This document shows positions 11,998 through 28,315 of a DNA stretch of 64,000 nucleotides, piece by piece. The position numbers and the translations under genes were made by a program. Below the pieces are notes generated by a model. It was not told the origin of the DNA, did no database searches, and saw only the letters and a list, made by a program, of their open reading frames with translations. Origin of the DNA: Draconibacterium aestuarii (GTDB lineage Bacteria > Bacteroidota > Bacteroidia > Bacteroidales > Prolixibacteraceae); the NCBI GenBank assembly GCA_026671195.1, contig JAPOHD010000007.1, positions 248,001 to 312,000 on the forward strand, in the 5' to 3' direction. Numbering within the stretch: the stretch's first letter is position 1; each line of letters begins with the position of its first letter.

Positions 11998-13272
11998 ATG
12001 AATAAAGCTAAACTTGTATTACCCCAACTTACTTCAGTCATTTTAATTGCTTTTGCCGTATCCACTTTTTTTCCGGCATGTACCACAAAAACCACAACAG
12101 ATAAAAAAACGGAAACGGCTCAGTGGAGAGGAATTAATCGGGATGGAATTTATAATGAAACAGGACTTTTAAACGTTTGGAATGAAAATGGCCCGGAATT
12201 ACTCTGGTCTTACGTAGGAATTGGCAAAGGCTATGCCTCACCGGCAATTGCAGACAACAAACTTTTTGTTAACGGTGAACAAGATAGCAGCAGTTTTTTA
12301 TTTGCATTCGACCTCCTGGGCAATTTACTTTGGAAAGCTCCCAACGGAAGGGAGTTTATGGGCGATGGCTTTTCTGCTACCTATCCCGGTTCGCGATCGA
12401 CACCTACTGTAGTTGACAATCTGGTTTATACAACATCTGGAAAAGGAAGAATTGCCTGTTTTGAAACTTCCACAGGAACAGAAAGATGGGCAGTTGATAT
12501 TGTGAATGAATTGGGAGGTCTGTATTCTTATTTTGGGTATTCCGAATCGGTATTGATTGATAACGACAAATTATTTTGTTTCCCGGGCGGGAATAAGAAT
12601 AATACTGTTGCATTAAACAGATTTACCGGAGAAATAGAATGGTCGGTAAAAGCAATGCAAGATACTTTCTCCTACTGCTCACCCATACTTGTTAAGCTGG
12701 CAGAGCGTAAAGTTGTAGTAACCACTTCGCGCCATTATTTATATACTCTGAACTCCGAAACCGGAGAAGTACTTGATTCCTATTTAATAGACCATTATAA
12801 GTACGATGGTGAACATTGTAACTCGCCATTGTATGTAAATGGAAATATATATTTTGTAGGCAACGAAGAAAATGACGGTGCAATAAAATTAGAACTTACA
12901 CAAAATGGAAAACTAAACGCACTCTGGCAGAATAAAACAATAAAAAACAACTTTAACGGCTATGTTAAAATTGACAACCATCTGTTTACCATGGTTAAAG
13001 GCAATTGGCTCAAAGCACTCGATGATGAAACCGGAGAAGTTACAGATTCTGTAAAAGCTGCAACAGGAAGTATCATCTATGCCGACAACAAATTTATCTG
13101 TTACGGAATGAATGGCGATGTATCGTTAATTACTTTCAACAACAACCAATTTGAAAATAAAAGTACATTCAAAGTACAACAAGGAAGCGGACACCATTTT
13201 GCACATCCTGTATTGGCTGATGGAGTATTATATATCAGACATGGAGATACTCTATTGGCCTATAAAATATAA
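11998..13272 (+). CDS. PQQ-type beta-propeller (BamB/quinoprotein-like) lipoprotein
   Basis: 424 residues. An N-terminal hydrophobic segment ends at PACTTK (about residue 29), a plausible lipoprotein cysteine. The entry motif QWRGINRDGIYNETGLL (about residue 42) is typical of Bacteroidota and Planctomycetes PQQ-like propellers. It is followed by blades such as LFAFDLLGNLLWKAP, IACFETSTGTERWAVDI and LYTLNSETGEVLDS. There is no catalytic quinoprotein signature, so a binding or scaffold role is more likely than dehydrogenase activity. The gene lies 238 bases after the kinase, and no clear terminator or promoter was found between them. It converges on the TPR gene with only 32 bases between stops. 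Confidence 0.82.
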   Translation: MNKAKLVLPQLTSVILIAFAVSTFFPACTTKTTTDKKTETAQWRGINRDGIYNETGLLNVWNENGPELLWSYVGIGKGYASPAIADNKLFVNGEQDSSSFLFAFDLLGNLLWKAPNGREFMGDGFSATYPGSRSTPTVVDNLVYTTSGKGRIACFETSTGTERWAVDIVNELGGLYSYFGYSESVLIDNDKLFCFPGGNKNNTVALNRFTGEIEWSVKAMQDTFSYCSPILVKLAERKVVVTTSRHYLYTLNSETGEVLDSYLIDHYKYDGEHCNSPLYVNGNIYFVGNEENDGAIKLELTQNGKLNALWQNKTIKNNFNGYVKIDNHLFTMVKGNWLKALDDETGEVTDSVKAATGSIIYADNKFICYGMNGDVSLITFNNNQFENKSTFKVQQGSGHHFAHPVLADGVLYIRHGDTLLAYKI

Positions 13273-13304: not shown

Positions 13305-15530
13305 TTATCCTTCCACAAAATACCGCAACTGATCGAGCATAATCGGTACATCTTCGTTTTCAACTCCCTGTTCTATCAAATGATGTAAATCCTCCTCAAA
13401 AACCTCAAAAAATTCGGATTCAGTAAAATCGGGTTGTTTTATGGACTGTTTGTAGAATTCCAGTGCTTCTTTGCGTCGTCCCAAACTCCATTGCACATGC
13501 CCCATGTTCATCAAATCGTGCTTGTTGGGTTCATCGTCAATCAGTTTCTGGAAATATTTTTCGGCCTGCTCTTTTTTCCCTGCCACAAACGAACACCAGG
13601 CAATTGGTTTCCAAACTTTTTTATTTCCAGACGCGATATATTCCACTTTAAAATAACACTTCAGAGCCTCATCAAATTGGTCGAGTTCCAACAAACAATG
13701 CCCAATATTTAGCTGAACATTCAGATTTTCCTCGTCGAGCTTTTCAACTTCCCGATAATATTCCAGTGCTTTTTTGGGTTGTTTTAAGTTGCGGTAGCAA
13801 AGTGCAATTTTATTAAAATTCCATTTGCGGTTTAAGTCGTACAGTTCAGCCTTTTTGTATGCATTTAATGCTTGTTTAAAATCGGCCATTTTCTGGTAAC
13901 AGAATCCAAGTTTTTGGTACAACTCGCCACTTTTTTCAATGCTGAGCAAGTAATTAAAAACCTCGGCAGCATCATCAAAATAGTTTTTTGTGAAATAATA
14001 TTCGGCTATATTCCGAAGTATATTTTCGTCTTCCTTCAGTATTTCGCCAAGCGCTATTTTGTTGTGGAAATCGAAACGCCAGTTAAAAATATCTTCAAAG
14101 TCGTTTTTCCGCGGATGCAGCTTATAAAAACGGTACAAATCCTGGATGATCTGGTTTGAAATAAAACCGGCCTTTTTGCCCGGTTCTGTGAGCTCTTCGT
14201 CATTTTGTAACTCTTCAAACTGTGCCATTTCCGCTTTCATACCTTCGGCCATAAATTCACGGTTTTCTGCAGGCAGGTTTTGTATGCTGAAACAGAATGA
14301 ATATTTATCGGAATTACACAACACAGGTGCAATATCAATGGCTTTTATAAACCGTGCATTCACCTCGTCGGTTGAATCAACCATCATCGAAATATCAGGA
14401 TTTGCAGCAAAAAATGGCATAAACCAATTTGAAAACTCGCTAAAAAACGGGAACATCTTCAGCATCGAAAACGAGCTCATAAAAACATCGGCGCCTTCCA
14501 TTTGCATTTCCGAAAATTCCTCCATTTTATTCATCAATCCCGGCGAATCTTCAAAAATCTTTTCCCACTCCGGATTTTTATCTTCCCCCAAACTGTCGTC
14601 CATTAAACTATCAAGATTAATTTTATCCTTTAGGTTTGGGCTAATTTTTATCATCTCGGGAATGATCTCATCCTTTATTTTTTGCTGAATTTTTTCGGTT
14701 TCTTTACTTCTTATAAATTGAACAATCACCCGCTCGAGATTTTGCTTAAATTCCGGATTTTCGTTCAATATTTTTAAACGTGCAGTTATGGACGGATAAA
14801 ATGGTAAACGCGCGTCGTACTTATAAAAGCCAATTAGCATACCTATAATCGCACGCTGATTGATTTCCATTTCTTCCTGTTCGTAGGCATCAAAAAGAAG
14901 CGCGAACTTTTCCTCATTGAAATAACGCAATAAACTCAACATCAGCGACGAGACAATTAATGCTTTATAAGCCGTTGAAATCAACTCACTGTCAAGGATC
15001 TGTTTTATTGCTTTCACTTCAGCTGAATGTAATTCATTCTGAAACCAAATATGATAGAAGAATGAAACGACTTTTTCCTGATGATTCTGTGTATCGATTT
15101 GTTTCGATGATTCCTGTATCTCCTCATCATCAACCAAAGCTTTCAATTCTTCCTGTAAATAAAAATCTTCAAGCTCGGCAAATAGTGTTTCCAAATTGAT
15201 TGTGTTGCCGGCAAAACCCCTTTTCCTCTCGTATTCCAACGCAGGGGAGGCTTTCAAACGAATTTCATCGTTTATTTTATCAACCAGCTTAAAAACCGAA
15301 ACAATAAGTTTCCGATATACCTTTTGACGCTCCGGATCCTGAATACCCTCAACCGTATATTTGAGCATGTAACTGTAGGTTTGCTCCAGGTTTCGCCATT
15401 CATCGAGATAAATCAACAATCCACTATCGTGAATAAGTTTCTCTAATTTATCAAAAGCAGGTTTTAATTTGCGCTCTGCCAGATTTTGGCAGATTTCTGT
15501 ATATTGTATTTTAAGTTCTCTATCCGTCAT
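13305..15530 (-). CDS. Large TPR-repeat protein of unknown role
   Basis: 741 residues without signal peptide or membrane segment, so probably cytoplasmic. The first 480 or so residues are acidic and helical, with no domain I recognise. The C-terminal 240 residues contain tandem TPR units, for example FDDAAEVFNYLL, GELYQKLGFCYQKMADFKQALNAYKKAE, KIALCYRNLKQPKKALEYYREVEKL and MGHVQWSLGRRKEALEFYKQ. TPRs are protein-protein interaction scaffolds. The gene is the last of the minus-strand cell-wall cluster, 109 bases after the AmpG-like gene, but it may have its own promoter and need not belong to that pathway. Function unknown. Confidence 0.85.
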   Translation of the reverse strand: MTDRELKIQYTEICQNLAERKLKPAFDKLEKLIHDSGLLIYLDEWRNLEQTYSYMLKYTVEGIQDPERQKVYRKLIVSVFKLVDKINDEIRLKASPALEYERKRGFAGNTINLETLFAELEDFYLQEELKALVDDEEIQESSKQIDTQNHQEKVVSFFYHIWFQNELHSAEVKAIKQILDSELISTAYKALIVSSLMLSLLRYFNEEKFALLFDAYEQEEMEINQRAIIGMLIGFYKYDARLPFYPSITARLKILNENPEFKQNLERVIVQFIRSKETEKIQQKIKDEIIPEMIKISPNLKDKINLDSLMDDSLGEDKNPEWEKIFEDSPGLMNKMEEFSEMQMEGADVFMSSFSMLKMFPFFSEFSNWFMPFFAANPDISMMVDSTDEVNARFIKAIDIAPVLCNSDKYSFCFSIQNLPAENREFMAEGMKAEMAQFEELQNDEELTEPGKKAGFISNQIIQDLYRFYKLHPRKNDFEDIFNWRFDFHNKIALGEILKEDENILRNIAEYYFTKNYFDDAAEVFNYLLSIEKSGELYQKLGFCYQKMADFKQALNAYKKAELYDLNRKWNFNKIALCYRNLKQPKKALEYYREVEKLDEENLNVQLNIGHCLLELDQFDEALKCYFKVEYIASGNKKVWKPIAWCSFVAGKKEQAEKYFQKLIDDEPNKHDLMNMGHVQWSLGRRKEALEFYKQSIKQPDFTESEFFEVFEEDLHHLIEQGVENEDVPIMLDQLRYFVEG

Positions 15531-15639
15531 TATTATTCAAAATTACGTGAATGACAGCAAATATTCAAAAAGCAATCCAAATTTATATTCGGCTGTTTTG
15601 ACGCATAAAGAGGATTTTTATCTGCCAAAGTTACCTTGG

Positions 15640-17475
15640 CTAACTCTCTTCTTTCTTACCAAAATTCGGATCTATTTTAATAAACGGAAGAACAACAAAA
15701 ATAGGAAGGGTACAAATTAACACCCATACAAAGAAATTTTGATAGCCGATAATTTCCTGCAGCCAGCCGCTTATCATTCCCGGAATCATCATTCCGAGCG
15801 CCATAAAACCGGTGGTAATTGCATAATGTGCCGTTTTGTGTTTTCCCTGCGAAATATAGATCATAAAAAGCATGTACGCCGTAAATCCAAAACCATAGCC
15901 AAATTGCTCAATAACCACTGCAGCTGACACGTACCATAACGAATCGGGAGTGAATGCAGATAATAACAAATAGCTTAAATTAGGTAGGTTAATCGCCAGA
16001 GCCATCCACCAAATCCAGTATTTCAAACCTTGTCGCGAAGCAACAATTCCGCCTAAAATACCGCCAATAGTTAAGGCAATCATTCCGGCTGTTCCGTATA
16101 CCAAACCAAGATCTCCGGTAGTCAGCCCCAAACCTCCGGCTTCTTTGGCATCCAATAGAAACGGAGATGCCATTTTCACGAGTTGCGATTCGGCCAAACG
16201 GTACAACAACATAAACAGAATGGCAACACCAATATTTTCCTTTTTGAAGAAACTAACAAAGGTGGCAAGAAACTCTGCAACAACTCCTCTGCCCTCTGTT
16301 TTATTCGACACATCATCAGCAGGATGCGGTAAAATGAAACGGTGGTAGAGAAAGAACAGAGCAAACATCACGGCAATAATTACAAATACTACCGACCATG
16401 CAAAGGTTATATTTCCCGACCGGCCAATAAAAGTTGCCCGGGTAGCTTTCTCTAACTTCGAATCGAGCTGAACCACTGCAAAAGCAGGTTTATCCCAGTT
16501 GTCGTCGTTAAAAACAAAACGGTATTCACGTATCAGCTTTATACTTTTATCGCCTTTATCGCTCCCAAAATTCAAAACTACATTTTCACCGGGTTCAGGT
16601 TTTTCCGAAAGCTGAATAGGAATTATGGCAATGTTTCCAACCTTATCGCTCAGCTTAACTTCGTCTTTATTAAACTTCTCTTTTAAATACCCCTTCAACG
16701 GTAATGATACTGATTTTGCCCACCACGAAAGATCCTTAGTTTCAATCCTTTCTTCAATTTCGTAAAATCTATTTTTAATGTTCCACTCGTTAACTTCGGC
16801 AAAAATGGAGTTAGTATAATCTGTACTAACCTGACCAATAGGAACGCTTAACTCATCAACTGAAACAAAACACATTTCCTCCGGTTTGGCAGTACTACCA
16901 AACAGTTCCGGTTGAAACTGAACTTCCGTTACCATTTCGTTTTTGGCAACCACCTCCACCGTTACCGGATCTAAGCCTGTTGCACTCTCCAGAGATCCGG
17001 CCAGAATTACCAAAAGTCCCTGCCCGGTGAGCATGGCAATCCGATAAAATGTACTTCTTATACCTACAAAAAATGCCTGATCTCCGGTTGATAATCCGAG
17101 CATGTAAAAGCCATCGGCGGCAATATCATGGGTAGCCGAACTAAATGCAAGTAACCAGAAAAATGCCAGCGTGTACTGGAAAAACCGTTCAACCGGTATT
17201 GTAAAAGCCACACCGGCTAATCCAACACCGATTATTAATTGCATAATGCTTATCCAATAACGTTTGGTTTTGAGGATATCAACAATTGGGCTCCAAAGTG
17301 GCTTAATTACCCATGGCAGATACAACCAACTGGTGTACAATGCGATGTCGGTATTCGAAATCCCCAAACGTTTGTACATAATTACGGAAAGAGTCATTAC
17401 AATTACGTATGGTATTCCTTGTGCGAAATAAAGTGATGGAATCCAAAACCAGGGTGATCGTTGTTTCGCTGACAT
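15640..17475 (-). CDS. AmpG-like MFS transporter with a large extramembrane insert
   Basis: 611 residues. The start SAKQRSPWFWIPSLYFAQGIPY and the SPIVDILKTKRYW loop (about residue 62) resemble the AmpG branch of the major facilitator superfamily, which imports anhydro-muropeptides through the inner membrane. Transmembrane segments fill residues 10-165 and 355-600. Between them is a hydrophilic, charged stretch of roughly 180 residues (about 170-350), not seen in the shorter proteobacterial AmpG. With cytoplasmic ends it would lie outside the membrane on the periplasmic side if it follows an odd number of helices; this needs a topology prediction. The gene sits 82 bases after the SpoIID gene, in a locus that also encodes an amidase, MurQ and an amino-sugar kinase, which supports a muropeptide cargo. 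Another sugar or peptide remains possible. Confidence 0.78.
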   Translation of the reverse strand: MSAKQRSPWFWIPSLYFAQGIPYVIVMTLSVIMYKRLGISNTDIALYTSWLYLPWVIKPLWSPIVDILKTKRYWISIMQLIIGVGLAGVAFTIPVERFFQYTLAFFWLLAFSSATHDIAADGFYMLGLSTGDQAFFVGIRSTFYRIAMLTGQGLLVILAGSLESATGLDPVTVEVVAKNEMVTEVQFQPELFGSTAKPEEMCFVSVDELSVPIGQVSTDYTNSIFAEVNEWNIKNRFYEIEERIETKDLSWWAKSVSLPLKGYLKEKFNKDEVKLSDKVGNIAIIPIQLSEKPEPGENVVLNFGSDKGDKSIKLIREYRFVFNDDNWDKPAFAVVQLDSKLEKATRATFIGRSGNITFAWSVVFVIIAVMFALFFLYHRFILPHPADDVSNKTEGRGVVAEFLATFVSFFKKENIGVAILFMLLYRLAESQLVKMASPFLLDAKEAGGLGLTTGDLGLVYGTAGMIALTIGGILGGIVASRQGLKYWIWWMALAINLPNLSYLLLSAFTPDSLWYVSAAVVIEQFGYGFGFTAYMLFMIYISQGKHKTAHYAITTGFMALGMMIPGMISGWLQEIIGYQNFFVWVLICTLPIFVVLPFIKIDPNFGKKEES

Positions 17476-17557
17476 AGTTTTTTTCTGATTCTAATTCTTG
17501 GTACTTTATACTTCAACTCCGCTCAATATTACAGTCACAGTGAGCGGACTCGAACGA

Positions 17558-18892
17558 TTAGTAACGTTTTTCTAAAGTAATATTTTTAAAATAATGCTGA
17601 AGGATTTCGTCGTATTTGTAGCCTTTGTGCCCCATTACTGCAGCACCAATCTGACACAGTCCCACGCCGTGCCCCCAGCCGGCACCATGTAAAATAAAAT
17701 TTTGAGGAATACCTTCAACCACATCCTGTTTTTCAATTGTAAAAGCCGAACTATACAAATGCGATTCGCTTAACCAGCGGCGGATCTCCAACTCTTTCCC
17801 AAAAATGAGTGTCTTTTTCGAACCCACAATTTTCAGTTTTGTCAACCTGCCCGAAGTTCCTCGTTCAACCGGAATCATATCGATAATGTCTCCAAAATCG
17901 CGCCCCGATCGTTTTAATATCAACTCCGATAATTCTTTTTGAGAGTATTCAACCATCCAACGATAAAAATCTTTGGCTACCCAGTCGTACTCATTTAAAA
18001 CCTGTTTCAGCACTTCCTCATCATCGGTATTACAAAACGCTTCCGGATTATTTTGGATCCATTCCACAGAATTCTCTTCAACAATCAGATTAGTGTTATA
18101 ACCTTTTGCTGCCTTAGGATTATCAATTACAGCAGTCAGGTAGGGATGATTTACAGGTTCCCAGCAATTTTCGAAAAGTTCGGCAATTCCGCCACAACAT
18201 TTCGAAAAACGAGCATCGCAAACCACACCATTGTAGCTCAAAATCACACCGGCAGTTTCATTTACTGCTTTTATTACATTTGGATTTTGGGCGCGTGTGG
18301 TACCCTGGTAACGCTGACAGTGATCGTCGGCGCATACATGAAAGTTTACATGATCTTCGCGGTCGTACCATTTTATAAATTCGGTTTCGGTTTCAAAGGT
18401 ACTTTCGTAACTCTCAGTGGTACCCGACAGTTTATCCTGTTTTTCAATTTGAGCAATCAACCAGCTCCGCGATATAATAGCATGTGCTTTTAACAAGTCC
18501 AAAGAATTTGTGGCACTCATTTCTGAAGAAATTACACTAATCAGGTAATTTTCGAGCGGAAGAACATTAATAACGGTAATTTTACCGTCTTCGACAATTA
18601 GTTTCAAGACTCCCTGAAACTTCTGATTTTCATTTTGTTCCCAGTGAAAATTCACTCCAATGGTTACATCTTTCAACTCAAATTCAGAGGTCATAAAATC
18701 AAGCGGCGAGAAATACAATTCTTCTTGAGAAATGTCAGAATCCGCCAATTTAATTTTCCCGTTTTCAATCTGAACGGAATAATTTCCATTACATATTTCC
18801 TGACTTCCTTTGAGTTGAAATTTTCCGTCGAAAGAAAATTCAACCTTGTCGCGACACATTATGCCAACATCAATATTCGGTGCTGTATTCAT
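17558..18892 (-). CDS. SpoIID/LytB-domain protein lacking an export signal
   Basis: 444 residues. A SpoIID core is clear: the entry GVLKLIVEDGKITVINVLPLE near residue 92, then ENYLISVISSEM with the glutamate of S-S-E-M (about 121) that corresponds to the family's catalytic position, then LKAHAIISRSWL. There is a cysteine-containing insertion (CADDHCQRYQG, CGGIAELFENCW) and a C-terminal HGAGWGHGVGLCQIGA motif (about 405-420). Family members bind or cleave peptide-free peptidoglycan strands as lytic transglycosylases. The protein starts MNTAPNIDVGIMC, with no hydrophobic leader. The previous gene stops only 2 bases before, so no longer N-terminus is hidden. It should therefore be cytoplasmic, which is odd for this family and suggests imported muropeptides as substrate. 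Domain call firm, role inferred. Confidence 0.85.
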   Translation of the reverse strand: MNTAPNIDVGIMCRDKVEFSFDGKFQLKGSQEICNGNYSVQIENGKIKLADSDISQEELYFSPLDFMTSEFELKDVTIGVNFHWEQNENQKFQGVLKLIVEDGKITVINVLPLENYLISVISSEMSATNSLDLLKAHAIISRSWLIAQIEKQDKLSGTTESYESTFETETEFIKWYDREDHVNFHVCADDHCQRYQGTTRAQNPNVIKAVNETAGVILSYNGVVCDARFSKCCGGIAELFENCWEPVNHPYLTAVIDNPKAAKGYNTNLIVEENSVEWIQNNPEAFCNTDDEEVLKQVLNEYDWVAKDFYRWMVEYSQKELSELILKRSGRDFGDIIDMIPVERGTSGRLTKLKIVGSKKTLIFGKELEIRRWLSESHLYSSAFTIEKQDVVEGIPQNFILHGAGWGHGVGLCQIGAAVMGHKGYKYDEILQHYFKNITLEKRY

Positions 18893-18894
18893 TG

Positions 18895-19839
18895 TTATGC
18901 TTTAGTTTTAATCAGTTCGATTAATTTATCAAAGGTTTCTTCATCCAATAAAACCTGCGCGAGAATGTCCTTTATATCGTCCTTTCTTATTTTTTTGAAA
19001 TCCTTTTCGAGCGGGGTTATAAAAACACCACCCATATCAACAGAAGCCGGGCTAAGCAAAATATTCTTCTCCCCTTCTTCGAAATATTGAGTTGGTCGAT
19101 GCAAGGCACGCGGGAAAATGAAAACCCGCCAGATACTTCTGTGAAACGAAGCCAGAATATTCATCATCGGTTCCTCTTCATTTAAATCAACTTTCATGGA
19201 TTGATAGATGCTCTCAATGTTAATTTTCAATGCCTTTTTATCGGTCGACTCCAAAAAAATAAAATTTCGTAACCCATCTTTTATGCTCCAAACAGTACCT
19301 GCTTCAGAAAAGAGTTTTGTGCCATAACTTTCTTTTAGGAAATCGATTTCATTATTAATCGGCATAAAATCACTGTTCCCGGCCTGAAAATGAAAATGAT
19401 CGGGTGCCGACGCGCCACACTTTGGCCCGTTGTAAAAAACAGTAAACTCCTGCATCACCCGGGCCAAATCAAGCATATTCCCAAAATTTCCCTGAATACG
19501 CTGCGGTGTATGTGCAAAGCCTGGTATTGTAAAATGCTCCGGAAAAATAGGAAACGGATTTACCAGAATCGAAAAATCATTAAAAGCTACACCGCGCTGC
19601 TCTTTCGGACGATTTGCTTCGCACAAAAAGCAGGGACGTGCTTCGATCGATTTTTTATCGACTTTGGCAGCCGACGAGACAATTCGCACGGGATTAAACT
19701 GCACTTTCACCTTAAATCCATCAAACTGAAAAGTTCGTACCTGCACCTTATCTAGTCCTGTAAAATTCTTTCGGGCAAGCTCCCATTCATTTTTTTGCGC
19801 TACAAGTAAATCTCTTGTTTCTTTTGTTAATACATCCAT
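18895..19839 (-). CDS. DUF4922 HIT-like protein (nucleotidyltransferase/phosphorylase fold)
   Basis: 314 residues, no signal peptide. CFLCEANRPKEQRG near residue 82 holds a C-x2-C pair that could bind zinc. GPKCGASAPDHFHFQAG near residue 142-158 carries H-x-H-x-Q, the active-site signature of the GalT/GDP-L-galactose phosphorylase branch of the HIT superfamily. Such enzymes transfer a nucleotide to or from a sugar-1-phosphate through a nucleotidyl-histidine. The name DUF4922 is my recognition of the Bacteroidota family. The gene is translationally close to SpoIID (2-base gap) and 37 bases after the double glycosyltransferase gene, so the three are probably one operon. A role in activating or salvaging an amino-sugar phosphate is inference from the location. 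Confidence 0.75.
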   Translation of the reverse strand: MDVLTKETRDLLVAQKNEWELARKNFTGLDKVQVRTFQFDGFKVKVQFNPVRIVSSAAKVDKKSIEARPCFLCEANRPKEQRGVAFNDFSILVNPFPIFPEHFTIPGFAHTPQRIQGNFGNMLDLARVMQEFTVFYNGPKCGASAPDHFHFQAGNSDFMPINNEIDFLKESYGTKLFSEAGTVWSIKDGLRNFIFLESTDKKALKINIESIYQSMKVDLNEEEPMMNILASFHRSIWRVFIFPRALHRPTQYFEEGEKNILLSPASVDMGGVFITPLEKDFKKIRKDDIKDILAQVLLDEETFDKLIELIKTKA

Positions 19840-19876
19840 ATTTTTCTACTGACATCATTTCAGACGTGACACGACA

Positions 19877-21337
19877 CTAGTTTCTATTTTTACGTTGACG
19901 TGCTTTTAATTCGATCGTCCGAATTCGGTCTTTGTATGTGTTGTGATTATTCGTTTTTACAATATCCAGGGCTGCATCTGAGTTATCGTCCCAACGACGA
20001 CACAAATAAATATTCTCGTACACACGGCCAATCTTATAATCGCGTGATATTGCCAAGCCCACCGCATAATCTTCACCGTAACTCGTATTTGGCACTTTTA
20101 CATCGCACAATACCGGTGTAAAGAAAGCACGCGGCGCACCCAACCCGTTTATACGTAGTGCATTATTTTTACCGTTATCGGGTGTCCATTCTTTGTGATC
20201 GATAATACCAGGAGGAATTTCATCCAAATCAAAATTCACCAGTTGATATGTTCCCACCACCATGGCACATTTTTCCTTTTCGAATACATCCATCACTTTC
20301 TGCAATGTGGTTTCGTTTTTATAAATGTCGTCGCTATCGAGTTGCATGGCAATCATTCCACAACGAGAATCGTGCACACCGAGGTTCCAGCAGCCACCAA
20401 TTCCAAGATCATGCCCCACAGGGATAATGTGCACCACCCGCTCATCCTTATCGGCAAACGAATCAATAATTTCTGTTGTTTTATCGGTTGAATGGTTGTC
20501 GACAACGATCAGGTTAAAATCGAAATCGGTTTTCTGCATCAACACCGATTCAATGGCATCGGCAATTGTTTTTTCGCGGTTGCGCACCGGAATAATCACC
20601 GACATTTTTTTATTAAAAACGGATTCATCCAAATCAACCGGCTTAAAATCGGGACTCAGCCAGGCACCCACATCTTTTAAATGTTCGGTTGCAGCCTGTT
20701 CCATTTCAATTTGCACCTTTTGGTTTTTCGGATCGACATAATCAAATATTTTCTGGCCGCTATTGCGCGTATCAGTATCGTCTATTGTATACAGGAATTC
20801 AGGCATACGAAAGAATTCACCTTGCTGAGCCACTTTTAAACGCAAGTAATACATCCCGGCATGCTCAAATTCCTGAGTCATGTTTTTAATGGCAGTTTTT
20901 AATGCATCGGTTCGGTATAACACCAAAGGGCCAAAGTTAAAATCGTCGCGCAAACTACCCTCCTGGTAATCAATTACCGGATGCGCAGCCATTTTCCCTT
21001 CATTCACCTCATAATAGTCGGAATACACTTTAACCGCACCCGTTGATTCGGCTACGTTTACAAATCGTTCAACAGCAAACTGCCCCAACTCAACGGAAGT
21101 TGTTTTTGTTAGCATCAGTACATAGTCTGCACCTTCAGAAGCTTCCACAATCTTTTTTAAAGTAGCTGTAGCAGCAAGGTTTTCAAAAGAAAATGCACTG
21201 GCTTTTCCACCTGCATTTGCTGCAATGTTTTCGGGAACATAAATGGTACCAACCATGGTATTTTCCTGCAGTTCGCGAATCATATTCGCCACACTTTTAA
21301 ATTCGTCAGCAGGTATAAAACAGTTTATCTTGATCAT
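19877..21337 (-). CDS. Double GT-A glycosyltransferase (GT2 domain behind a degenerate GT-like domain)
   Basis: 486 residues, no signal peptide or membrane segment. Residues about 245-440 form a GT2 domain: MSVIIPVRNREKTIADAIESVL opens it, VVDNHSTDKT follows, MQLDSDDIY (about 333) is the metal- and nucleotide-binding D-x-D, and SYGEDYAVGLAISRDY (about 420) gives the E-D of the acceptor site. The first 230 residues start IKINCFIPADEF and contain GADYVLMLTKTT and KVYSDYYEV, which look like a second GT-A-like unit without a clear D-x-D, hence probably degenerate. No membrane anchor is present, so it acts in the cytoplasm. Its place in a wall-salvage operon is unexplained. The donor and acceptor are unknown. 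Confidence 0.8.
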   Translation of the reverse strand: MIKINCFIPADEFKSVANMIRELQENTMVGTIYVPENIAANAGGKASAFSFENLAATATLKKIVEASEGADYVLMLTKTTSVELGQFAVERFVNVAESTGAVKVYSDYYEVNEGKMAAHPVIDYQEGSLRDDFNFGPLVLYRTDALKTAIKNMTQEFEHAGMYYLRLKVAQQGEFFRMPEFLYTIDDTDTRNSGQKIFDYVDPKNQKVQIEMEQAATEHLKDVGAWLSPDFKPVDLDESVFNKKMSVIIPVRNREKTIADAIESVLMQKTDFDFNLIVVDNHSTDKTTEIIDSFADKDERVVHIIPVGHDLGIGGCWNLGVHDSRCGMIAMQLDSDDIYKNETTLQKVMDVFEKEKCAMVVGTYQLVNFDLDEIPPGIIDHKEWTPDNGKNNALRINGLGAPRAFFTPVLCDVKVPNTSYGEDYAVGLAISRDYKIGRVYENIYLCRRWDDNSDAALDIVKTNNHNTYKDRIRTIELKARQRKNRN

Positions 21338-21423
21338 ATTTATTTATTTAAATTTTAAATAGTGAAAAATAAAAGGTTGTTGGAAACCAATTGCCCTCCC
21401 CTTTACAAAGTCTAAAAATATAA

Positions 21424-24405
21424 CTACTCCATTAACATTTTCAGTATTTCATTCATTAATTTATTCCGTGCGTTATCGCCTTTCACACTTTCATAGGGGA
21501 AACCAAGGGCAACTACCTTGTAATCGCCTTTATACAATACGCCGGCACTCACATTATTTTCGCTGTACCGGAAAATGGTTTGTGCGCTACTGTCTTTTGG
21601 TTCAATTCCGTCGGGCGCTTCCACCGGGTATTGTTCCAGGTTATAATCGGTATTGTATTCGCTCTGAAAATTCAAATCGTCTGATGTGGAATAAAACTGT
21701 CCGTTTTTCACGGCATGGTTGGTTCTCCACTTAAACTTCAGGATTTCAGTCACCCGATTAACCGTTTCTTTGTCTTTGGGAATATCTGTTCCGATGTAAG
21801 CACCGGTAATCAGAATGTTTCCACCATTTTTAGTATAGCCTTCCAATGCTTCCAGCATTTTATCAGTATAAATTTCAGAATAAGGTGTTGTATCTTTACC
21901 CGGCAGGAAACTTGTTTTTTCCTCACCATAAAGCAGATCGACCAAAGCATAATTGTTCAAATTAATCCGCCCGTTTTCCACAGCTTCATCGCTGCAGGTA
22001 GTAAAATTGTAACCTGCAGCCAAAATACCTGTGCCGTGTGCACACGAAAAATCAAAAGTATTTCCGCGAAAAATAGTGGTTTCCAAATCGGCATAACTTG
22101 CACCATGTCCCGGATTGTCGTCATCTTCCCATACTGATTTCCTTGTAAAATCGTACTGGTCGCCGGTGGTAGAAATATCGTAACCATAGGCAACACCATG
22201 ATCCAACTGACGCCATACTCCGGATAATGAATCGGTTTCGAAAATTTCAGGCCCGTCAACGCGATCGAAACCATTTACAATGAGAATTTCACCTTTACTA
22301 TTTTCTGCAATTCCCACAGAAACAATTTCCGACGGAAAACTTTCGCCACCTGCATTTACAGCCGTTATTTTAAATCCGTAAACTTTTCCTTTTTCAAGGT
22401 TCGAAATTGCTATTTCTGGTTTTTCTACCAGCATTCCGTTGTCAAACCCGTTTTCACCGGTTCGTTGATAGACCATGTATTTATTGGGTTTTGCACTTGG
22501 CTCAATCTCATCTAAAACAGGCTGCCAGCTTAATTTTACTGAATTCCCCGATACAAATTCAGAACTTAAATGATCAACCGGCAAGGGTTGAACCACATAA
22601 TCGAAACCATTCTGTGTTGCTAAGAATCGAAGGATTGCTTTATAAATAGCGCGCGAAACATCGAATCGGAATTTTGGATGCAGAATATATTTTACATCGT
22701 TAAAGTTCTGATGCGACAACAATTCCAGCAGCATAGAGGGAACCTGCGGACGATAAGCTTCGCTGTATTGCGAATTCCACATTCCGCGGCGTTTCCAGTC
22801 ACATTTGTAAATGCTGTTTATATCGTCTACAATCTGGGTTTGAATTAAATCGCTTAGATCGCGCGATGCGTATTTCGATTGTCCATCGGCAAAAACGGAG
22901 GTATCACGGTCGGTTGAGTAGATTCCCAAAGTCCCCACAATTTCGTCGCCGGACAAAATACCGGCATCGGTATGAAATGCCAAAGCCAAATCAATTGGAA
23001 TGCGTAATCCGGGATGTTGACGGTTTTTAGCGGGGCCAAAGGGCGCTCCAATCAGCCAGTCCACCCATTCTCCGCGACTCATGTAGTCATCTTTGTAATC
23101 GTCGTTTTCATTCAGTTTCCAAACCAAAGTATCAGGTGCACCCGAAAATTGTATATTATATCGCGCTCCTTCGAAATACCTGGCGCGTCCACCAGTTTTG
23201 CCTTTACGTTCAATTACACCCATTCCTCCACCAAAACGAACAGCATCAGCAGAAAATTTCTTCGATGATCCTTCAGGAATAATCAAATCCACTTTACTTG
23301 CTTTCTTATCAACTCCTTTGAGAAAATGGAAATTACCCAAATAAATCCAGGTTCCGAATCCAATTTGCTGGTCTACTTCAAAATCGGTTGTTCCTCCGCT
23401 GTGATAAACACGGTAAGTGACTTTCCCCTCCCCTTTTCCATACGAAACGTAAACCGAATAATCGCCGGATTCAGGAATGTCGGGAATATATGTAGCAACA
23501 TTTTCCTTCCTGTTCAAACTCTTAAAAGTTATCGAAGTTCCTAATTCAAATGGATTTTCGGAAACATACGGTGTTTTTCCAACGGCAAATCCAATTTGTT
23601 TTTCATCCCGCTTCTTTGGTTTTTTAAATCTACTTTTCCCGTTTGAGCCGTTATTATCCACAATCACCATGTTATGTTGCCGGTCGCGTTCGCGTGGATT
23701 AAAAACGTTGGCACCGGCATTTTCAAGCATTGGTGTAATGTATTCGGTTACAAAAACTGTTGGAGAAATATCTTCGAGCGTTGTAAAAAGCCTGGCCCGC
23801 TGCCACTCCCAACGATCAAATTTGGGTTCGTAATACCAGCCGTGACTATTCCACATGGCAATATTTGAGTTTTTTAACCCTGAAGAAATTTCATACGGTA
23901 GCCGAGGCGTAACCACATTTTTCCGTTCAGTCTGTACTTTTTGCGTCAGACGATTTTTGTTTTGTTTTTCGAACGATCGGTAGTAATTCGGTATCAGGTC
24001 GCTTAATTCTACTCCATTCGCTACTATCTTTATCGGTTTTGACTGAACATTTTCAGGAAGCAATGTTTTTATCGAATTCTTTATATTTCCAATCTTTGCT
24101 TCCCGAACCGGCATTTCCGCAAGCGCCTTGTTAAAAAGTAATACAAGCGTATCGTTTTCAGAACTGAAATAAACCGAATCAATTGCAACCCTTTTTGTGT
24201 TAAAATAATTTTGATCGCCAAAATAGATATCGGAACTACGTACACTCTTTAACCGGGTATTTAAATAAATACGTATAGAATCTGTATCTTGACCAAATAG
24301 AGTAAAAAAAGGATGTAGAAGGAAAAATGCAGTTAGAAAAAACACTTTTAAAAGTGTCATATTTTTTGCTTTACTTAATTTTGAGTTGGTTTGATACATA
24401 TTCAA
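21424..24405 (-). CDS. Secreted N-acetylmuramoyl-L-alanine amidase-like protein (split Amidase_3, golvesin-C-like, Fn3)
   Basis: 993 residues. The ATG at 24405 gives a long n-region; an ATG at 24360 (MTLLKVFFLTAFFLLHPF) gives a cleaner signal peptide, so either start is possible. An Amidase_3-like zinc site seems split. WNSHGWYY (about 187) supplies a first histidine and VTEYITPMLENAGANVF the adjoining helix. After an inserted beta domain resembling golvesin C-terminal/xanthan-lyase domains (about 275-400), AFHTDAG (about 476-481) and MLLELLSHQN (about 570) give the second histidine and the glutamate. An Fn3-like unit (about 630-715) and an unassigned C-terminal region follow. Annotation pipelines often call such proteins xanthan lyase, but the zinc-site motifs argue for peptide-stem cleavage from MurNAc. 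It is the first gene of the minus-strand cluster. Confidence 0.75.
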   Translation of the reverse strand: MNMYQTNSKLSKAKNMTLLKVFFLTAFFLLHPFFTLFGQDTDSIRIYLNTRLKSVRSSDIYFGDQNYFNTKRVAIDSVYFSSENDTLVLLFNKALAEMPVREAKIGNIKNSIKTLLPENVQSKPIKIVANGVELSDLIPNYYRSFEKQNKNRLTQKVQTERKNVVTPRLPYEISSGLKNSNIAMWNSHGWYYEPKFDRWEWQRARLFTTLEDISPTVFVTEYITPMLENAGANVFNPRERDRQHNMVIVDNNGSNGKSRFKKPKKRDEKQIGFAVGKTPYVSENPFELGTSITFKSLNRKENVATYIPDIPESGDYSVYVSYGKGEGKVTYRVYHSGGTTDFEVDQQIGFGTWIYLGNFHFLKGVDKKASKVDLIIPEGSSKKFSADAVRFGGGMGVIERKGKTGGRARYFEGARYNIQFSGAPDTLVWKLNENDDYKDDYMSRGEWVDWLIGAPFGPAKNRQHPGLRIPIDLALAFHTDAGILSGDEIVGTLGIYSTDRDTSVFADGQSKYASRDLSDLIQTQIVDDINSIYKCDWKRRGMWNSQYSEAYRPQVPSMLLELLSHQNFNDVKYILHPKFRFDVSRAIYKAILRFLATQNGFDYVVQPLPVDHLSSEFVSGNSVKLSWQPVLDEIEPSAKPNKYMVYQRTGENGFDNGMLVEKPEIAISNLEKGKVYGFKITAVNAGGESFPSEIVSVGIAENSKGEILIVNGFDRVDGPEIFETDSLSGVWRQLDHGVAYGYDISTTGDQYDFTRKSVWEDDDNPGHGASYADLETTIFRGNTFDFSCAHGTGILAAGYNFTTCSDEAVENGRINLNNYALVDLLYGEEKTSFLPGKDTTPYSEIYTDKMLEALEGYTKNGGNILITGAYIGTDIPKDKETVNRVTEILKFKWRTNHAVKNGQFYSTSDDLNFQSEYNTDYNLEQYPVEAPDGIEPKDSSAQTIFRYSENNVSAGVLYKGDYKVVALGFPYESVKGDNARNKLMNEILKMLME

Positions 24406-24425
24406 TATTCAAAAAAGTATGCTTA

Positions 24426-24433
24426 CAAAGATA
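24426..24433 (-). promoter_or_regulatory. Candidate -7 element for the amidase gene
   Basis: The minus strand reads TATCTTTG, fitting TAnnTTTG. Transcription would start near 24420, giving a short leader before the ATG at 24405 or about 60 bases before the one at 24360. No good -33 box is visible. The putative operator at 24441-24455 lies directly upstream of it. Confidence 0.4.
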
Positions 24434-24440
24434 AAACATA

Positions 24441-24455
24441 ATTTGTATTACATAT
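24441..24455. promoter_or_regulatory. Putative FadR-type operator between the amidase and kinase genes
   Basis: ATTTGTATTACATAT is a near-palindrome differing by one base from the perfect 15-base palindrome at 45651 and resembles the copy before the FadR-type gene at 47960. The half-site pattern TnGTnnnACnA is known for FadR-subfamily GntR regulators; here one outer base deviates. It lies between the divergent promoters of the amidase and kinase genes. A 14 of 15 match also occurs inside a GH43 gene, so chance cannot be excluded. Confidence 0.4.
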
Positions 24456-24476
24456 TACCAATATTTAAAAAAGTTA

Positions 24477-24484
24477 TATATTTG
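24477..24484 (+). promoter_or_regulatory. Candidate -7 element for the kinase/murQ transcript
   Basis: TATATTTG fits TAnnTTTG and lies 46 bases before the kinase ATG. The putative operator at 24441-24455 ends 21 bases upstream, in the -33 region, a typical place for repressor binding. No TTTG at the standard spacing. Confidence 0.5.
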
Positions 24485-24530
24485 CAGCATCGAAATCAAG
24501 CAACAATTTAAAACGAATACAACGAATAAA

Positions 24531-25367
24531 ATGTTAATTATTGCAGACAGCGGTTCATCTAAAACAGACTGGTTATTTATAAATGGAGAAAACACATACA
24601 ATATTCAATCTCCCGGAATAAATCCATTTTTTCAGAACATGGACGAAATTATAGGTAACCAAAAAGATCTGATAAATGATGAATTTAAAGCAGCAGCAAG
24701 CAAACTCTTCTTTTATGGAGCTGGCTGTATAAAAGGAAAAACCGATAAAACGGTACTAGATGCTTTGTCTCAGATTTTCCCAAATGCCCAAATTCAGGTT
24801 GAGGATGATATGTTGGGAGCTGCGCGGGCATTGCTTGGAAACACAAAAGGTATAGCTTGTATTTTAGGAACAGGAGCAAATTCCTGTTTTTACAACGGAA
24901 CTAAGATTATGGACAAAATCCCGACACTCGGTTTTATTTTAGGCGACGAAGGTAGCGGTGCACATATTGGGAAACTTTTTCTGAATGATTATTTTAAAAG
25001 AGCCATTCCCAAAGACCTGAAAGCAAAAATTGATATGGAGCTTCAACTGGAAATGGCCGGGGTTTTAAATTCGGTTTACAGAGAAGAATACCCAAGTAGA
25101 TATCTCGCCTCTTTTTCCACATTTTTAAACAAAAACATCAACCATACTTATACACAAAATCTTATAAAAAAATGTTTTGCTGAGTTCTTCATCAGAAATA
25201 TTGAGCGTTACGAGAATTACAAAAATCTGCAAGTTAATTTTGTTGGATCAATCGCCTATCATTATTCCGACTTACTAAAAGAAGTGGCTTTTGAACGCGG
25301 AATTACGGTTGGAAAAATTATCTGCAAACCTATTGAGGGGTTAAAGCGTTTCCATACAAATTTTTAA
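24531..25367 (+). CDS. murK: BadF/BadG-type ATPase family kinase, probable MurNAc/GlcNAc kinase
   Basis: 278 residues, cytoplasmic. The ASKHA-fold sugar kinase motifs are present: LIIADSGSSKTDW at the N-terminus (phosphate 1), CILGTGANSCFYNG near residue 112 (phosphate 2), and LGFILGDEGSGAHIGK near residue 135, typical of N-acetylhexosamine kinases in the BadF/BadG/BcrA/BcrD family. Such enzymes phosphorylate MurNAc or GlcNAc at position 6 or 1. The next gene, murQ, starts 7 bases after the stop, so the pair is co-expressed, and a MurNAc kinase feeding the MurQ etherase is the simplest reading. The symbol murK is by analogy with other amino-sugar kinases beside murQ; a GlcNAc kinase is the main alternative. 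Confidence 0.82.
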   Translation: MLIIADSGSSKTDWLFINGENTYNIQSPGINPFFQNMDEIIGNQKDLINDEFKAAASKLFFYGAGCIKGKTDKTVLDALSQIFPNAQIQVEDDMLGAARALLGNTKGIACILGTGANSCFYNGTKIMDKIPTLGFILGDEGSGAHIGKLFLNDYFKRAIPKDLKAKIDMELQLEMAGVLNSVYREEYPSRYLASFSTFLNKNINHTYTQNLIKKCFAEFFIRNIERYENYKNLQVNFVGSIAYHYSDLLKEVAFERGITVGKIICKPIEGLKRFHTNF

Positions 25368-25374
25368 GTAAACA

Positions 25375-26178
25375 ATGAAAATTACTGAATCATCATCATT
25401 ATACGATAATCTGGAAAAAATGTCGGTGAGAGAAATTCTGACCGGAATAAACAACGAAGATGCCAAAATCCATGAGGCAGTTAAAACTCAAATTCCAAAG
25501 ATTGAGCAGCTGGTAGAACAGCTTGTCGACAGGATAAAATCAGGAGGTCGATTATTTTATCTGGGCGCAGGTACAAGTGGCCGGCTGGGAATTTTGGATG
25601 CCTCGGAAATTCCTCCAACTTTTGGAATGCCCTATGGAGTAGTAATTGGCCTTATCGCAGGTGGCGACACAGCCATTCGTAAAGCGGTTGAAGCAGCCGA
25701 AGATGACATTAATGGGGGCTGGAGCGATTTGCAGGCCTTTGATATAAACAAAAAAGATACAGTGGTTGGGATTGCCGCATCAGGAGGTACTCCATACGTA
25801 ATCGGAGCACTTAAAGATGCCAATCAAAACGGATTGCTTACCGGATGTATTACCTGTAATCCCGATTCAAAAATTGCTGAAGTTGCCCAAATTGCCATAG
25901 AACCTATTGTTGGCCCTGAGTTTTTAACCGGAAGTACCCGTATGAAAGCCGGAACAGCACAAAAAATGGTTCTGAATATGATCACCACCTCGCTGATGAT
26001 AAAACTGGGCCGCGTGAAAGGGAACAAAATGGTGGATATGCAATTAACCAATAAAAAACTGGTAGAACGGGGTTCGAAAATGATTGTTGATGAACTTGGA
26101 ATAGGCATTGACGAAGCCCGAAGACTTCTCCTTTTACACGGATCGGTGCGTGCAGTTTTAGATAACTTCAGAGTATAA
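25375..26178 (+). CDS. murQ: N-acetylmuramic acid 6-phosphate etherase
   Basis: 267 residues with a single SIS-fold domain. The hallmark LGAGTSGRLGILDASEIPPTFG (about residues 62-83) includes the catalytic glutamate of A-S-E-I. GIAASGGTPYVIGAL (about 126) and GPEFLTGSTRMKAGTAQKMVLN (about 180) complete the phosphosugar site. The enzyme cleaves the lactyl ether of MurNAc-6-phosphate to give GlcNAc-6-phosphate and D-lactate, the committed step of MurNAc catabolism in wall recycling. It is about 30 residues shorter than the E. coli enzyme, mainly at the C-terminus. It is coupled to the kinase gene upstream and followed by a strong terminator. Confidence 0.96.
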   Translation: MKITESSSLYDNLEKMSVREILTGINNEDAKIHEAVKTQIPKIEQLVEQLVDRIKSGGRLFYLGAGTSGRLGILDASEIPPTFGMPYGVVIGLIAGGDTAIRKAVEAAEDDINGGWSDLQAFDINKKDTVVGIAASGGTPYVIGALKDANQNGLLTGCITCNPDSKIAEVAQIAIEPIVGPEFLTGSTRMKAGTAQKMVLNMITTSLMIKLGRVKGNKMVDMQLTNKKLVERGSKMIVDELGIGIDEARRLLLLHGSVRAVLDNFRV

Positions 26179-26359: not shown

Positions 26360-28315
26360 TTAATAATTTTCGCTAAGCCAAACATTCATTTTATTGGCTC
26401 CCCTGTTGTTCCATACATAATATGGGATAGCCGTAAAGATCTCATTGTTTACACTACCCGATGCTTTTATCACTTCCACTCCTGCTAAAAGATCGGATCT
26501 ATATCCGGTAGAGAACCGGGTATTTTCTGAAATGGCAATTGATTCAATTTTAGGATTATCAACTTCTTCCACACAATAAACAATTGGTCCGCGTTCAAGA
26601 GCCACTTTCCCCCTGTCGTCTTCAACCAGATTATTGGCTCTTACTTTTCGCACATTCATTGGCAGCAACAATTCAATAGTATCACCCGAATTCCATTCCC
26701 GGGTAAACACGGCATACCCATTTTCTATTTTGTAATCTACATTTTCGTTGTTAACTGTAAGGGTTGGTTTAGCATCTATTATTTCGTTATACGAATATAA
26801 ATCGCCAGGTACCGCTGTATTTACCGACCAACCCGGAATTCGAACCTTTACACTAAATGCAGATTTCTTTTCAGGAGATACCGAAATTCTAACATCCCCT
26901 TCCCACGGATATTTGGTTTCTTGTGCAACTTTTACTGTATTTCCTTTAATTTCAAGCTCAGTACTACTTTGAACAAAAAGATTTATGTATAAATTATCAT
27001 CTTTCTGTGCATAAATGTAGCCAGGAACCGAAGGCATAAAACGGCACAAATTTGTGGGACAACACGAACAATCGAACCAGGTTTGACGTTCAAGATGTTC
27101 GCGATTAAAATGATAATGCATATCACACGAAAGCGGATTGGGATAAAAGAATTCCTTTCCGTTTAGGGCCACTCCTGAAATTACTCCGTTATAGAGGCTT
27201 CTTTCCAACACATCGATGTATTTTGAGTCGCCATACAGCAAGAACATCCTGTAGTTCCAGTACACATTGGCGATGGCTGCACAGGTTTCGTTATAAGCTG
27301 TCAGGTTTGGTAATTCATAATTTTCACCAAAAGCTTCTCCATCGTGTTTTGCTCCAATTCCTCCGGTGATGTACATCTTTTTTGTTACAACATTATCCCA
27401 TATTTTATTTACCGCACTTTTGTAGGCCGTATCGTTATAAAGTGCAGCGATGTCAGTCATTCCGGCGTACATATAGGCTGCACGCACGGCATGTCCAACC
27501 GCTTCGTCCTGTTCAGTTACAGGTTTGTGGTCCTGGTTGTAACGCCCCCAAAGTTCGCGTTTGGTGCTGTCGCCACGCGTATCTAAAAAATGACGCGCCA
27601 AATCGAGGTATTCCTTTTTATCCGTAATTAAAAACAGCTTTATTAAACCGGTTTCTACGATCTGATGCCCCGGAACCTGGTTATTTTCGTTGGCTCCAAA
27701 AACTTTCACAAGCAAATCAGCATTTTTTGTAGCGATATCCAAAAAGTTTGTTTTTCCTGTGGCAATATAATGAGCTGCTGCTGCCTCAAACATATGACCT
27801 GCGTTATACAATTCATGGCTCCAGGCAAGGCCTTCCCAGCGTTCCCCAGGAGGACACCATTCTGCTGGCGAATGAGTCGGGTCAATGGTTTTCCAGGTGG
27901 TAAGGTAACCATCTTCTTCTTGTCCGATAGCAATAATTTCGATCAAAGAATCCACATAAGCATCCAATTTTGGGTCGGGAATGGTGGTCATGGAATAAGC
28001 AGCACCTTCAATAATTTTGTACACATCGGTATCGTCAAAAGGCATATCACCTCTCACGGTTCCTTCCATTTTTCCTCCGGCAATCAGGAAATTTTCTAAA
28101 CGTCCTGTTTCTTCACATTTCTCAAAAGAAGCCGGTATTGTCGCTGTTCGATTGGTTTCAATTTTTGGCAGCCAAAAATTATCGTTTATTTGAACACCGC
28201 TGAATGAAACACCCGAAATGGGATATTCAGCGTGTTGGGTTTTGGGTTCTTCTTTTTGTGTTTTGCAACCAATAAGAAGTACAAAAAAGGAGATGATTAG
28301 ATAATTTAGTTTCAT
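26360..28315 (-). CDS. GH127 beta-L-arabinofuranosidase-like lipoprotein
   Basis: 651 residues. A lipoprotein signal ends in LLIGC near residue 16. The family entry GVQINDNFWLPKIETNRTATIPASFEKCEETGRLENF (seen in part near residue 38) is typical of GH127 (former DUF1680). YNETCAAIAN (about residue 341) supplies the Glu and Cys, and DCSCCPTN (about 422) the Cys pair, that in characterised GH127 bind zinc and provide the cysteine nucleophile. The family removes beta-L-arabinofuranose, and some relatives act on other furanosides. It diverges from the arabinan-type hybrid sensor gene, which fits a role on arabinose-rich polymers. The catalytic residues look intact. It lies 181 bases past murQ and is convergent with it. 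Confidence 0.9.
   Translation of the reverse strand: MKLNYLIISFFVLLIGCKTQKEEPKTQHAEYPISGVSFSGVQINDNFWLPKIETNRTATIPASFEKCEETGRLENFLIAGGKMEGTVRGDMPFDDTDVYKIIEGAAYSMTTIPDPKLDAYVDSLIEIIAIGQEEDGYLTTWKTIDPTHSPAEWCPPGERWEGLAWSHELYNAGHMFEAAAAHYIATGKTNFLDIATKNADLLVKVFGANENNQVPGHQIVETGLIKLFLITDKKEYLDLARHFLDTRGDSTKRELWGRYNQDHKPVTEQDEAVGHAVRAAYMYAGMTDIAALYNDTAYKSAVNKIWDNVVTKKMYITGGIGAKHDGEAFGENYELPNLTAYNETCAAIANVYWNYRMFLLYGDSKYIDVLERSLYNGVISGVALNGKEFFYPNPLSCDMHYHFNREHLERQTWFDCSCCPTNLCRFMPSVPGYIYAQKDDNLYINLFVQSSTELEIKGNTVKVAQETKYPWEGDVRISVSPEKKSAFSVKVRIPGWSVNTAVPGDLYSYNEIIDAKPTLTVNNENVDYKIENGYAVFTREWNSGDTIELLLPMNVRKVRANNLVEDDRGKVALERGPIVYCVEEVDNPKIESIAISENTRFSTGYRSDLLAGVEVIKASGSVNNEIFTAIPYYVWNNRGANKMNVWLSENY

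Follow-up and report, generated by a model that had tools for sequence, protein, structure and literature searches.

A 64,000-nucleotide stretch of the Draconibacterium aestuarii genome (contig JAPOHD010000007.1, positions 248,001 to 312,000 of the forward strand), which we call the window, carries on its minus strand genes for a two-domain GT-A glycosyltransferase (GT2, 19877-21337), a DUF4922 protein of the Ap4A-phosphorylase/GalT type (18895-19839), a SpoIID/LytB-domain protein devoid of an export signal (17558-18892) and a permease of the AmpG family within the major facilitator superfamily (MFS; 15640-17475). The first three, hereafter the trio, constitute with AmpG a real four-gene module, and the link of the trio to the salvage of cell-wall fragments is strongly supported. 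It is likely that the trio processes the cargo of AmpG in the cytosol, and there is about an even chance that the whole explanation holds, namely that the cytosolic trio works on AmpG-imported disaccharides upstream of MurK and MurQ. Beyond the statement that the four genes act together and that the trio is cytosolic, we infer everything that is said below about mechanism.

A first, sequence-only reading of the locus had called for a survey of the gene neighbourhood of DUF4922. It was run on the best 80 loci of at least 578 confirmed DUF4922 relatives, with neighbours counted at E <= 1e-10 and at least 60 bits; as many contigs are short, the 47 loci whose flanks reach 8 kb or more in both directions were also counted separately. 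In 73 of the 80 loci a GT2 gene of the same orientation starts within 3.5 kb upstream of DUF4922; SpoIID of the same family is found in 58 and AmpG in 57. Among the 47 loci with long flanks the corresponding numbers are 44 for GT2, 37 for AmpG and 36 for SpoIID, followed by MurK (33), an amidase (31) and MurQ (28). SpoIID was missing from 22 of the fetched loci and AmpG from 23, several of them short contigs from which the neighbour may have been cut off. For 16 of the former and 13 of the latter the whole genome was searched, and the missing gene was located at another place in 15 and 12 of them, respectively; the exceptions are the genomes of loci L089 and L097. In loci of the Bacteroides type the genes follow the order amidase/golvesin, GT2, DUF4922, SpoIID, AmpG, then MurK and MurQ. 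NamZ exo-muramidases recur in these loci, as does a NagX/HGSNAT-type membrane protein that, from its place in the gene order, we take to be probably MurT. The tetratricopeptide (TPR) protein gene that adjoins AmpG in the window (13305-15530, minus strand), which the sequence-only reading had counted as part of the set, lies outside the module: it was matched in 1 of the 80 best loci, in 1 of the 47 with long flanks, and in one further stretch (L123).

Co-occurrence was followed in 89 genomes that represent 88 families of the window's order, with thresholds of E <= 1e-3 for DUF4922, 1e-40 for GT2, 1e-20 for both SpoIID and AmpG and 1e-30 for MurQ. DUF4922, GT2 and SpoIID occur in an identical set of 26 genomes, leaving 63 without the trio. 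AmpG was detected in 27, that is in all 26 trio carriers, each of which has a close AmpG, and in one trio-less genome (G315) that holds it only as a paralogue of 41-42 % identity; at this threshold a more distant AmpG could go unseen in the remaining non-carriers. The tie of the trio to muropeptide import that had been proposed from the locus alone is thus borne out by the distribution of the genes. In five genomes (G248, G264, G270, G271, G289) genes of the set lie on separate contigs or about 25 kb apart, yet all are present. Since such unlinked copies still co-occur, linkage alone does not account for the association. An rpoB tree (FastTree, midpoint root, 86 of the 89 genomes; G283, G308 and G331 were left out and G301 is partial) requires no fewer than 10 switches between carrier and non-carrier, and the four genes seem to come and go as one set.

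Gene fusions are a further feature of the module. DUF4922 and SpoIID form a single open reading frame (ORF) in L082 (Carboxylicivirga linearis, 758 aa), L112 (787 aa) and L113 (669 aa), as do GT2 and DUF4922 in L111 (826 aa), and the order of the domains in the fusions is that of the genes at the loci. One genome has two GT2 copies, one in a run of GT2, SpoIID and AmpG genes where DUF4922 was not matched (G230:C1:168672-173447) and the other in the GT2-DUF4922 fusion (L111:8183-10663).

The window's SpoIID protein matches PF08486 (82.5 bits) and TIGR02669 (174.9 bits), both above cut-off. Lytic transglycosylases of the SpoIID/LytB type are expected to be exported or membrane-anchored, and the module protein appears to differ from them in this respect. 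Among the SpoIID ORFs of the 80 best loci, 57 of 58 fail a signal test, and the sole pass (L043) has an ORF start that looks misplaced; the test is a crude N-terminal hydrophobicity threshold of our own, not SignalP, and ORFs starting at a locus edge were left out. In the same loci 25 of 36 amidases and 41 of 45 NamZ proteins pass it, compared with 0 of 75 DUF4922 and 1 of 70 GT2 proteins, in agreement with the proposal that the trio carries no export signals. In the fusion species SpoIID would likewise be cytosolic, because it lies C-terminal to DUF4922, whose family should need nucleotides. The module SpoIID is therefore predicted to be a cytosolic protein. Alternatively, SpoIID could be exported along a pathway that the test does not recognise and act as an ordinary periplasmic lytic transglycosylase that makes the substrates of AmpG. 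Extracts of Tannerella forsythia are reported to contain lytic transglycosylase activity (PMC7670621), and the corresponding gene of that species has been annotated as lytB, an amidase enhancer precursor (PMC5388701). However, the near-uniform failure of SpoIID in a test that most amidases and NamZ proteins of the same loci pass, together with its position as the C-terminal half of three DUF4922 fusions, makes export very improbable.

The module SpoIID looks catalytic, judging from its kept residues. Glu124, presumably the catalytic glutamate, aligns with the EM motif of 4rwr and is invariant in 23 of 23 homologues, and so is a His/Cys cluster composed of H181, C187, H191 and C192.

The window's DUF4922 protein matches PF16269 with 215.9 bits. 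A sequence search of the PDB gave no match up to E 10, but a fold search with the model (pLDDT 93.4) did. The best matches are to the yeast Ap4A phosphorylase Apa2 (E 1.7e-9 and 2.4e-9; TM-scores on the query of 0.56 and 0.61; 16 % identity), followed in order by a DUF4931 protein, CDP-diacylglycerol pyrophosphatase and GalT (E 1.5e-3). PF19327 (Ap4A_phos_N), for which the window protein gives no match, is above cut-off in the fused relatives L111 and L113 and just below it in L112. An HxHxQ motif (148-152) is invariant in 48 of 48 sequences, its glutamine replacing the third histidine of hydrolytic HIT enzymes; a CxxC motif (70, 73), H102 and H110 are equally invariant. Fold and motif would thus place the protein in the nucleotide-transferring HIT/GalT superfamily, in line with its earlier description as a HIT-like nucleotide enzyme, and it is most likely a phosphorylase or a transferase acting via a nucleotidyl-histidine.

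A GDP-hexose phosphorylase enzyme of animals has a role in metabolite repair, and DUF4922 might, like GDP-glucose phosphorylase, only clear a wrong nucleotide sugar when the cell is flooded with AmpG cargo, with GT2 and SpoIID acting elsewhere. Domain analyses do place GDP-hexose phosphorylases in the DUF4922 superfamily (PMC9871823, PMC11047344), and according to a review, loss of the conserved third histidine in the plant enzyme GGP favours phosphate over water (PMC11066809); DUF4922 likewise lacks it, with Q152 at this place. A repair role, however, would not require DUF4922 to be gained and lost each time in step with GT2, SpoIID and AmpG, or to be joined to members of this set in one protein, and we consider a pure repair function highly improbable.

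The third member of the trio matches PF00535 above cut-off (85.4 bits) in its C-terminal half only. Its description as a double GT-A protein is nevertheless supported by the model (pLDDT 89.4), since the six best Foldseek matches are all chains of the chondroitin polymerase K4CP, which has two GT-A domains. In the C-terminal half, which has the DxD and acid pair of GT-A enzymes, the motifs DSDD (334-337), ED (422-423) and RRW (447-449) are invariant in 39 of 39 sequences. The N-terminal half is GT-A by fold alone; it keeps an RDD motif (130-132) in all 39, but Asp107 of its candidate DxD is an aspartate in only 33. Because of this difference the N-terminal half may serve for binding and not for catalysis.

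The variable DxD is also one of two points in favour of a sensory role, in which the cytosolic SpoIID and/or the N-terminal half of GT2 would bind muropeptides without turnover and the set would report wall damage. The other is the presence near DUF4922 of signal-transduction clusters (17, 19 and 22), each found in 5 to 7 of the 80 best loci. No regulator cluster exceeds 7 of the 80, and the catalytic-type residues of SpoIID, of DUF4922 and of the C-terminal half of GT2 are invariant, so that there is little chance that the set is a sensor.

The resemblance of GT2 to a polysaccharide polymerase raises a different question, namely whether the trio builds rather than degrades. In an anabolic scheme DUF4922 and GT2 would activate salvaged GlcNAc-1-phosphate (N-acetylglucosamine 1-phosphate, GlcNAc-1-P) or MurNAc-1-P (the N-acetylmuramic acid equivalent) as a nucleotide sugar and assemble either a glycan or a precursor of the UDP-MurNAc/UDP-GlcNAc type; AmgK/MurU or GlmU would be bypassed and SpoIID would trim the product. 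Besides the K4CP match, this is consistent with the inclusion of GalT in the DUF4922 superfamily. T. forsythia moreover is reported to lack GlmS, GlmU, MurA and MurB and to need a route from MurNAc to UDP-MurNAc (PMC5790795), and its operon of this type was termed glycosylation-related in earlier work (PMC5388701). Later work on the same species, however, assigns the UDP-MurNAc route to AmgK and MurU (PMC7670621). In addition, the fold of DUF4922 comes closest to that of a phosphorylase, with GalT lower, and a distribution shared with AmpG is easier to reconcile with degradation of the imported material than with a general synthesis of precursors. An anabolic role of the trio is therefore unlikely.

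As to the fate of the imported sugars, the window contains, divergent from the minus-strand run, a gene for a MurK-type amino-sugar kinase (24531-25367, plus strand) and one for MurQ, the N-acetylmuramic acid 6-phosphate etherase (25375-26178, plus strand). The kinase gives no Pfam match and matches chains of solved MurNAc/GlcNAc-kinase-type structures (8ow9, 8oqw, 1zxo), the match to 8ow9, a "Putative novel MurNAc kinase", having an E-value of 1.2e-63; MurQ matches TIGR00274 above cut-off (309.8 bits). In the order, MurQ is present in 16 of the 26 trio carriers vs 5 of the 63 non-carriers, which speaks against the possibility, envisaged in the sequence-only reading, that the trio occurs mostly without wall-salvage genes and neighbours them by accident. 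That reading had also suggested a branch different from the MurQ route, a proposal that we rejected in view of the 33 and 28 long-flank loci in which MurK and MurQ neighbour DUF4922. AnmK, counted by PF03702 at E <= 1e-10, shows the opposite trend: it is found in 4 of the 26 carriers vs 57 of the 63 non-carriers (Fisher 9.7e-12). For the joint evolution of trio and AnmK on the rpoB tree, a dependent model is favoured over an independent one (likelihood ratio 22.8, 4 degrees of freedom, p 1.4e-4); this test used a script of our own and, with few events, can overstate. Trio carriers thus tend to be without AnmK, a tendency that is weaker after phylogenetic correction. Strict replacement of AnmK by the trio was rejected, since the window's own genome holds both, and what is kept is a statistical avoidance. 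The trio more likely feeds MurK and MurQ, and if it tends to replace an enzyme, this would be AnmK.

An operon of this kind is already in print for T. forsythia, contrary to the earlier view that no described pathway has this gene set. Tanf_08345-08385 comprises genes for a "xanthan lyase", gtf, gtf, lytB, ampG, ybbC, murT, murK and murQ, in this order, on a single transcript under GppX (PMC5388701). In the accessible part of that report a tested function is given only for the transport, kinase and etherase genes; for Tanf_08350, 08355 and 08360 (gtf, gtf, lytB), tags that within the literature searched occur in this one paper, it gives annotation and co-transcription, and no tested function was found. 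A second kinase, K1058, is described just upstream of the cluster (PMC10465942). T. forsythia AmpG imports GlcNAc-anhMurNAc (anhMurNAc being the 1,6-anhydro form of MurNAc) and GlcNAc-MurNAc, mainly in peptide-free form, and no AnmK is predicted in this species, yet preparations of GlcNAc-anhMurNAc support its growth; the same paper states that the fate of anhMurNAc "remains to be explored" (PMC7670621). In the literature searched (few subscription papers, no bioRxiv) the two papers naming DUF4922 concern plants, nothing was found on SpoIID together with AmpG in Bacteroidetes, and the sole match for a cytoplasmic lytic transglycosylase concerns a mite symbiont.

These data can be accommodated in the following scheme. 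AmpG would import the peptide-free disaccharides GlcNAc-anhMurNAc and GlcNAc-MurNAc. SpoIID, with the fold of lytic transglycosylases, would then bind the intact anhydro-disaccharide in the cytosol, to which it seems suited because the site of these enzymes holds GlcNAc-anhMurNAc as product. Run in reverse, it would use water or an acceptor sugar to open the 1,6-anhydro ring, and AnmK would be unneeded. Ring opening at the level of the disaccharide would fit the growth of T. forsythia, which lacks a predicted AnmK, on the disaccharide and its poor growth on the monosaccharide, although this difference in growth could also stem from import. This step is our main mechanistic proposal, yet we regard it as less likely than not. 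GT2 and DUF4922 might act, via a nucleotide sugar, on the bond between GlcNAc and MurNAc or on the sugar set free from it, a weaker proposal in which DUF4922 would exchange phosphate or sugar-1-phosphate against a nucleotide. Both directions are possible, and breakdown is favoured over synthesis because of the tie to AmpG; any particular reaction for these two proteins is doubtful. MurK and MurQ, where present, would receive MurNAc. One version of the scheme would spare ATP: after ring opening by SpoIID, GT2 in reverse would move GlcNAc to a nucleotide, and phosphorolysis by DUF4922 would yield GlcNAc-1-P, the sum being a phosphorolysis of GlcNAc-MurNAc by a glycosyltransferase and a nucleotide-sugar phosphorylase. 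This specific route is rather improbable.

Several points weigh against the scheme. The identities of Tanf_08355 as DUF4922 and of Tanf_08360 (lytB) as SpoIID are probable because the operon order matches that of Bacteroides-type loci, and they come from this order, not from sequence. On an Slt70 digest, which contains mainly GlcNAc-anhMurNAc-peptides, T. forsythia reached an optical density of ~0.8 vs ~1.3 on GlcNAc-MurNAc-peptides, and on free anhMurNAc its growth was restricted, which the authors ascribe to poor uptake or a slow metabolism as possible reasons (PMC7670621). Both points soften the case for ring opening at the level of the disaccharide, and we set its odds lower because of the weaker growth on the anhydro-disaccharide digest. 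SpoIID enzymes are reported to cleave glycan strands (PMC9928106), and no report of ring opening by SpoIID was found in the literature searched. Much of the order-level AnmK contrast stems from one main clade with 23 genomes and a local support of 0.99, though the contrast persists among the other genomes, with AnmK in 3 of 6 carriers vs 55 of 57 non-carriers (p 0.005). At the level of the phylum the contrast is weaker, with AnmK in 17 of 37 carriers vs 155 of 210 non-carriers, weak partial DUF4922 matches (G027, G136, G160) being counted among the latter. AnmK of the window's own genome (G000:C64:5146-6174) means that the trio is not the sole substitute there. Finally, 10 of the 26 carriers have no detectable MurQ, and among the AnmK-bearing non-carriers MurQ is present in only 4 of 57; in MurQ-less non-carriers AnmK may not be doing its E. 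coli job.

Most teaching on the recycling of peptidoglycan draws on E. coli with its NagZ and AnmK. In 22 of the 26 carriers of the order an AmpG importer is present and AnmK was not detected, as likewise reported for T. forsythia, and a four-gene set inherited as a unit supplies candidate enzymes for such AnmK-less recycling. If the scheme is true, it would give DUF4922 a bacterial context, reveal a cytosolic enzyme with the fold of SpoIID, and have a bearing on the use of wall fragments by gut and oral Bacteroidota.

AmpG of the window is a family-level match to TIGR00901 (169.1 bits, E 1.2e-49) in two stretches along the MFS core, which does not reach the curated cut-off of 350. It has an insertion of ~180 aa at about residues 170-350 that is missing from many homologues. 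AmpG homologues come in two lengths, ~430 aa and ~610 aa, the extra ~180 aa lying between the transporter halves, and both lengths accompany the trio. The window's genome encodes a second AmpG-type permease (L119:8621-9919, G000:C13), ~37-44 % identical over pieces, with no trio gene matched within 19 kb around it; an AmpG paralogue of such type is also present in six other carriers among the 89 genomes (G230, G269, G281, G293, G319, G333).

The eight-gene layout of the locus, the strands and the gaps of 2 and 37 bases between the genes of the trio were all confirmed from the ORFs. The minus-strand run begins with the gene for an Amidase_3-like protein with a signal-like N-terminus, Golvesin_C and fn3 domains (21424-24405); its match to Amidase_3 (25.0 bits) is below the cut-off of 27, that to Golvesin_C has 62.7 bits. 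The gene next to MurQ, at 26360-28315, encodes a protein of the GH127-type beta-L-arabinofuranosidase family whose best NCBIfam match, aceric acid hydrolase, is below cut-off; it seems unrelated to wall salvage. Beyond the TPR gene lies a PQQ-propeller protein (11998-13272). A metallophosphoesterase with a PQQ/BamB-type propeller occurs in 22 of the 80 best loci, in one of them (L078:6654-8519) between the amidase and GT2. Searches of the window for tRNA genes and, at the gathering thresholds, for Rfam families found nothing.

The paradigm to which the module has to be compared is the recycling of anhydro-muropeptides in E. coli by AmpG, NagZ, AnmK and MurQ. Import of the AmpG type and the MurQ end are common to both, whereas the SpoIID/DUF4922/GT2 set is present in the module and AnmK is missing in most carriers of the order, the window's genome being among those that have it. 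The T. forsythia operon shares its gene order with Bacteroides-type loci, some of which also contain NamZ and the MurT-like gene; the window differs in having MurK and MurQ divergent, NamZ and MurT outside the run and a TPR gene after AmpG. Compared with known lytic transglycosylases of the SpoIID/LytB type (4rwr, 5i1t, 5txu and the chlamydial SpoIID described in PMC9928106), the module SpoIID has the domain, the aligned EM motif and the His/Cys cluster in common, but it lacks an export signal, is fused to DUF4922 in three genomes and is tied to AmpG. DUF4922 shares its fold and the HxHxQ of nucleotidyl-histidine enzymes with Apa2, GDP-hexose phosphorylase (VTC2/GGP) and GalT, all of which use phosphate or a sugar phosphate and not water; low identity and the invariant CxxC set it apart. 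With K4CP and other two-domain GT-A enzymes GT2 shares the tandem GT-A domains, but the DxD of its N-terminal half is not invariant and its distribution is that of AmpG. We regard the module as a variant within peptidoglycan recycling and not as a new kind of system, the idea of a separate branch being only partly supported.

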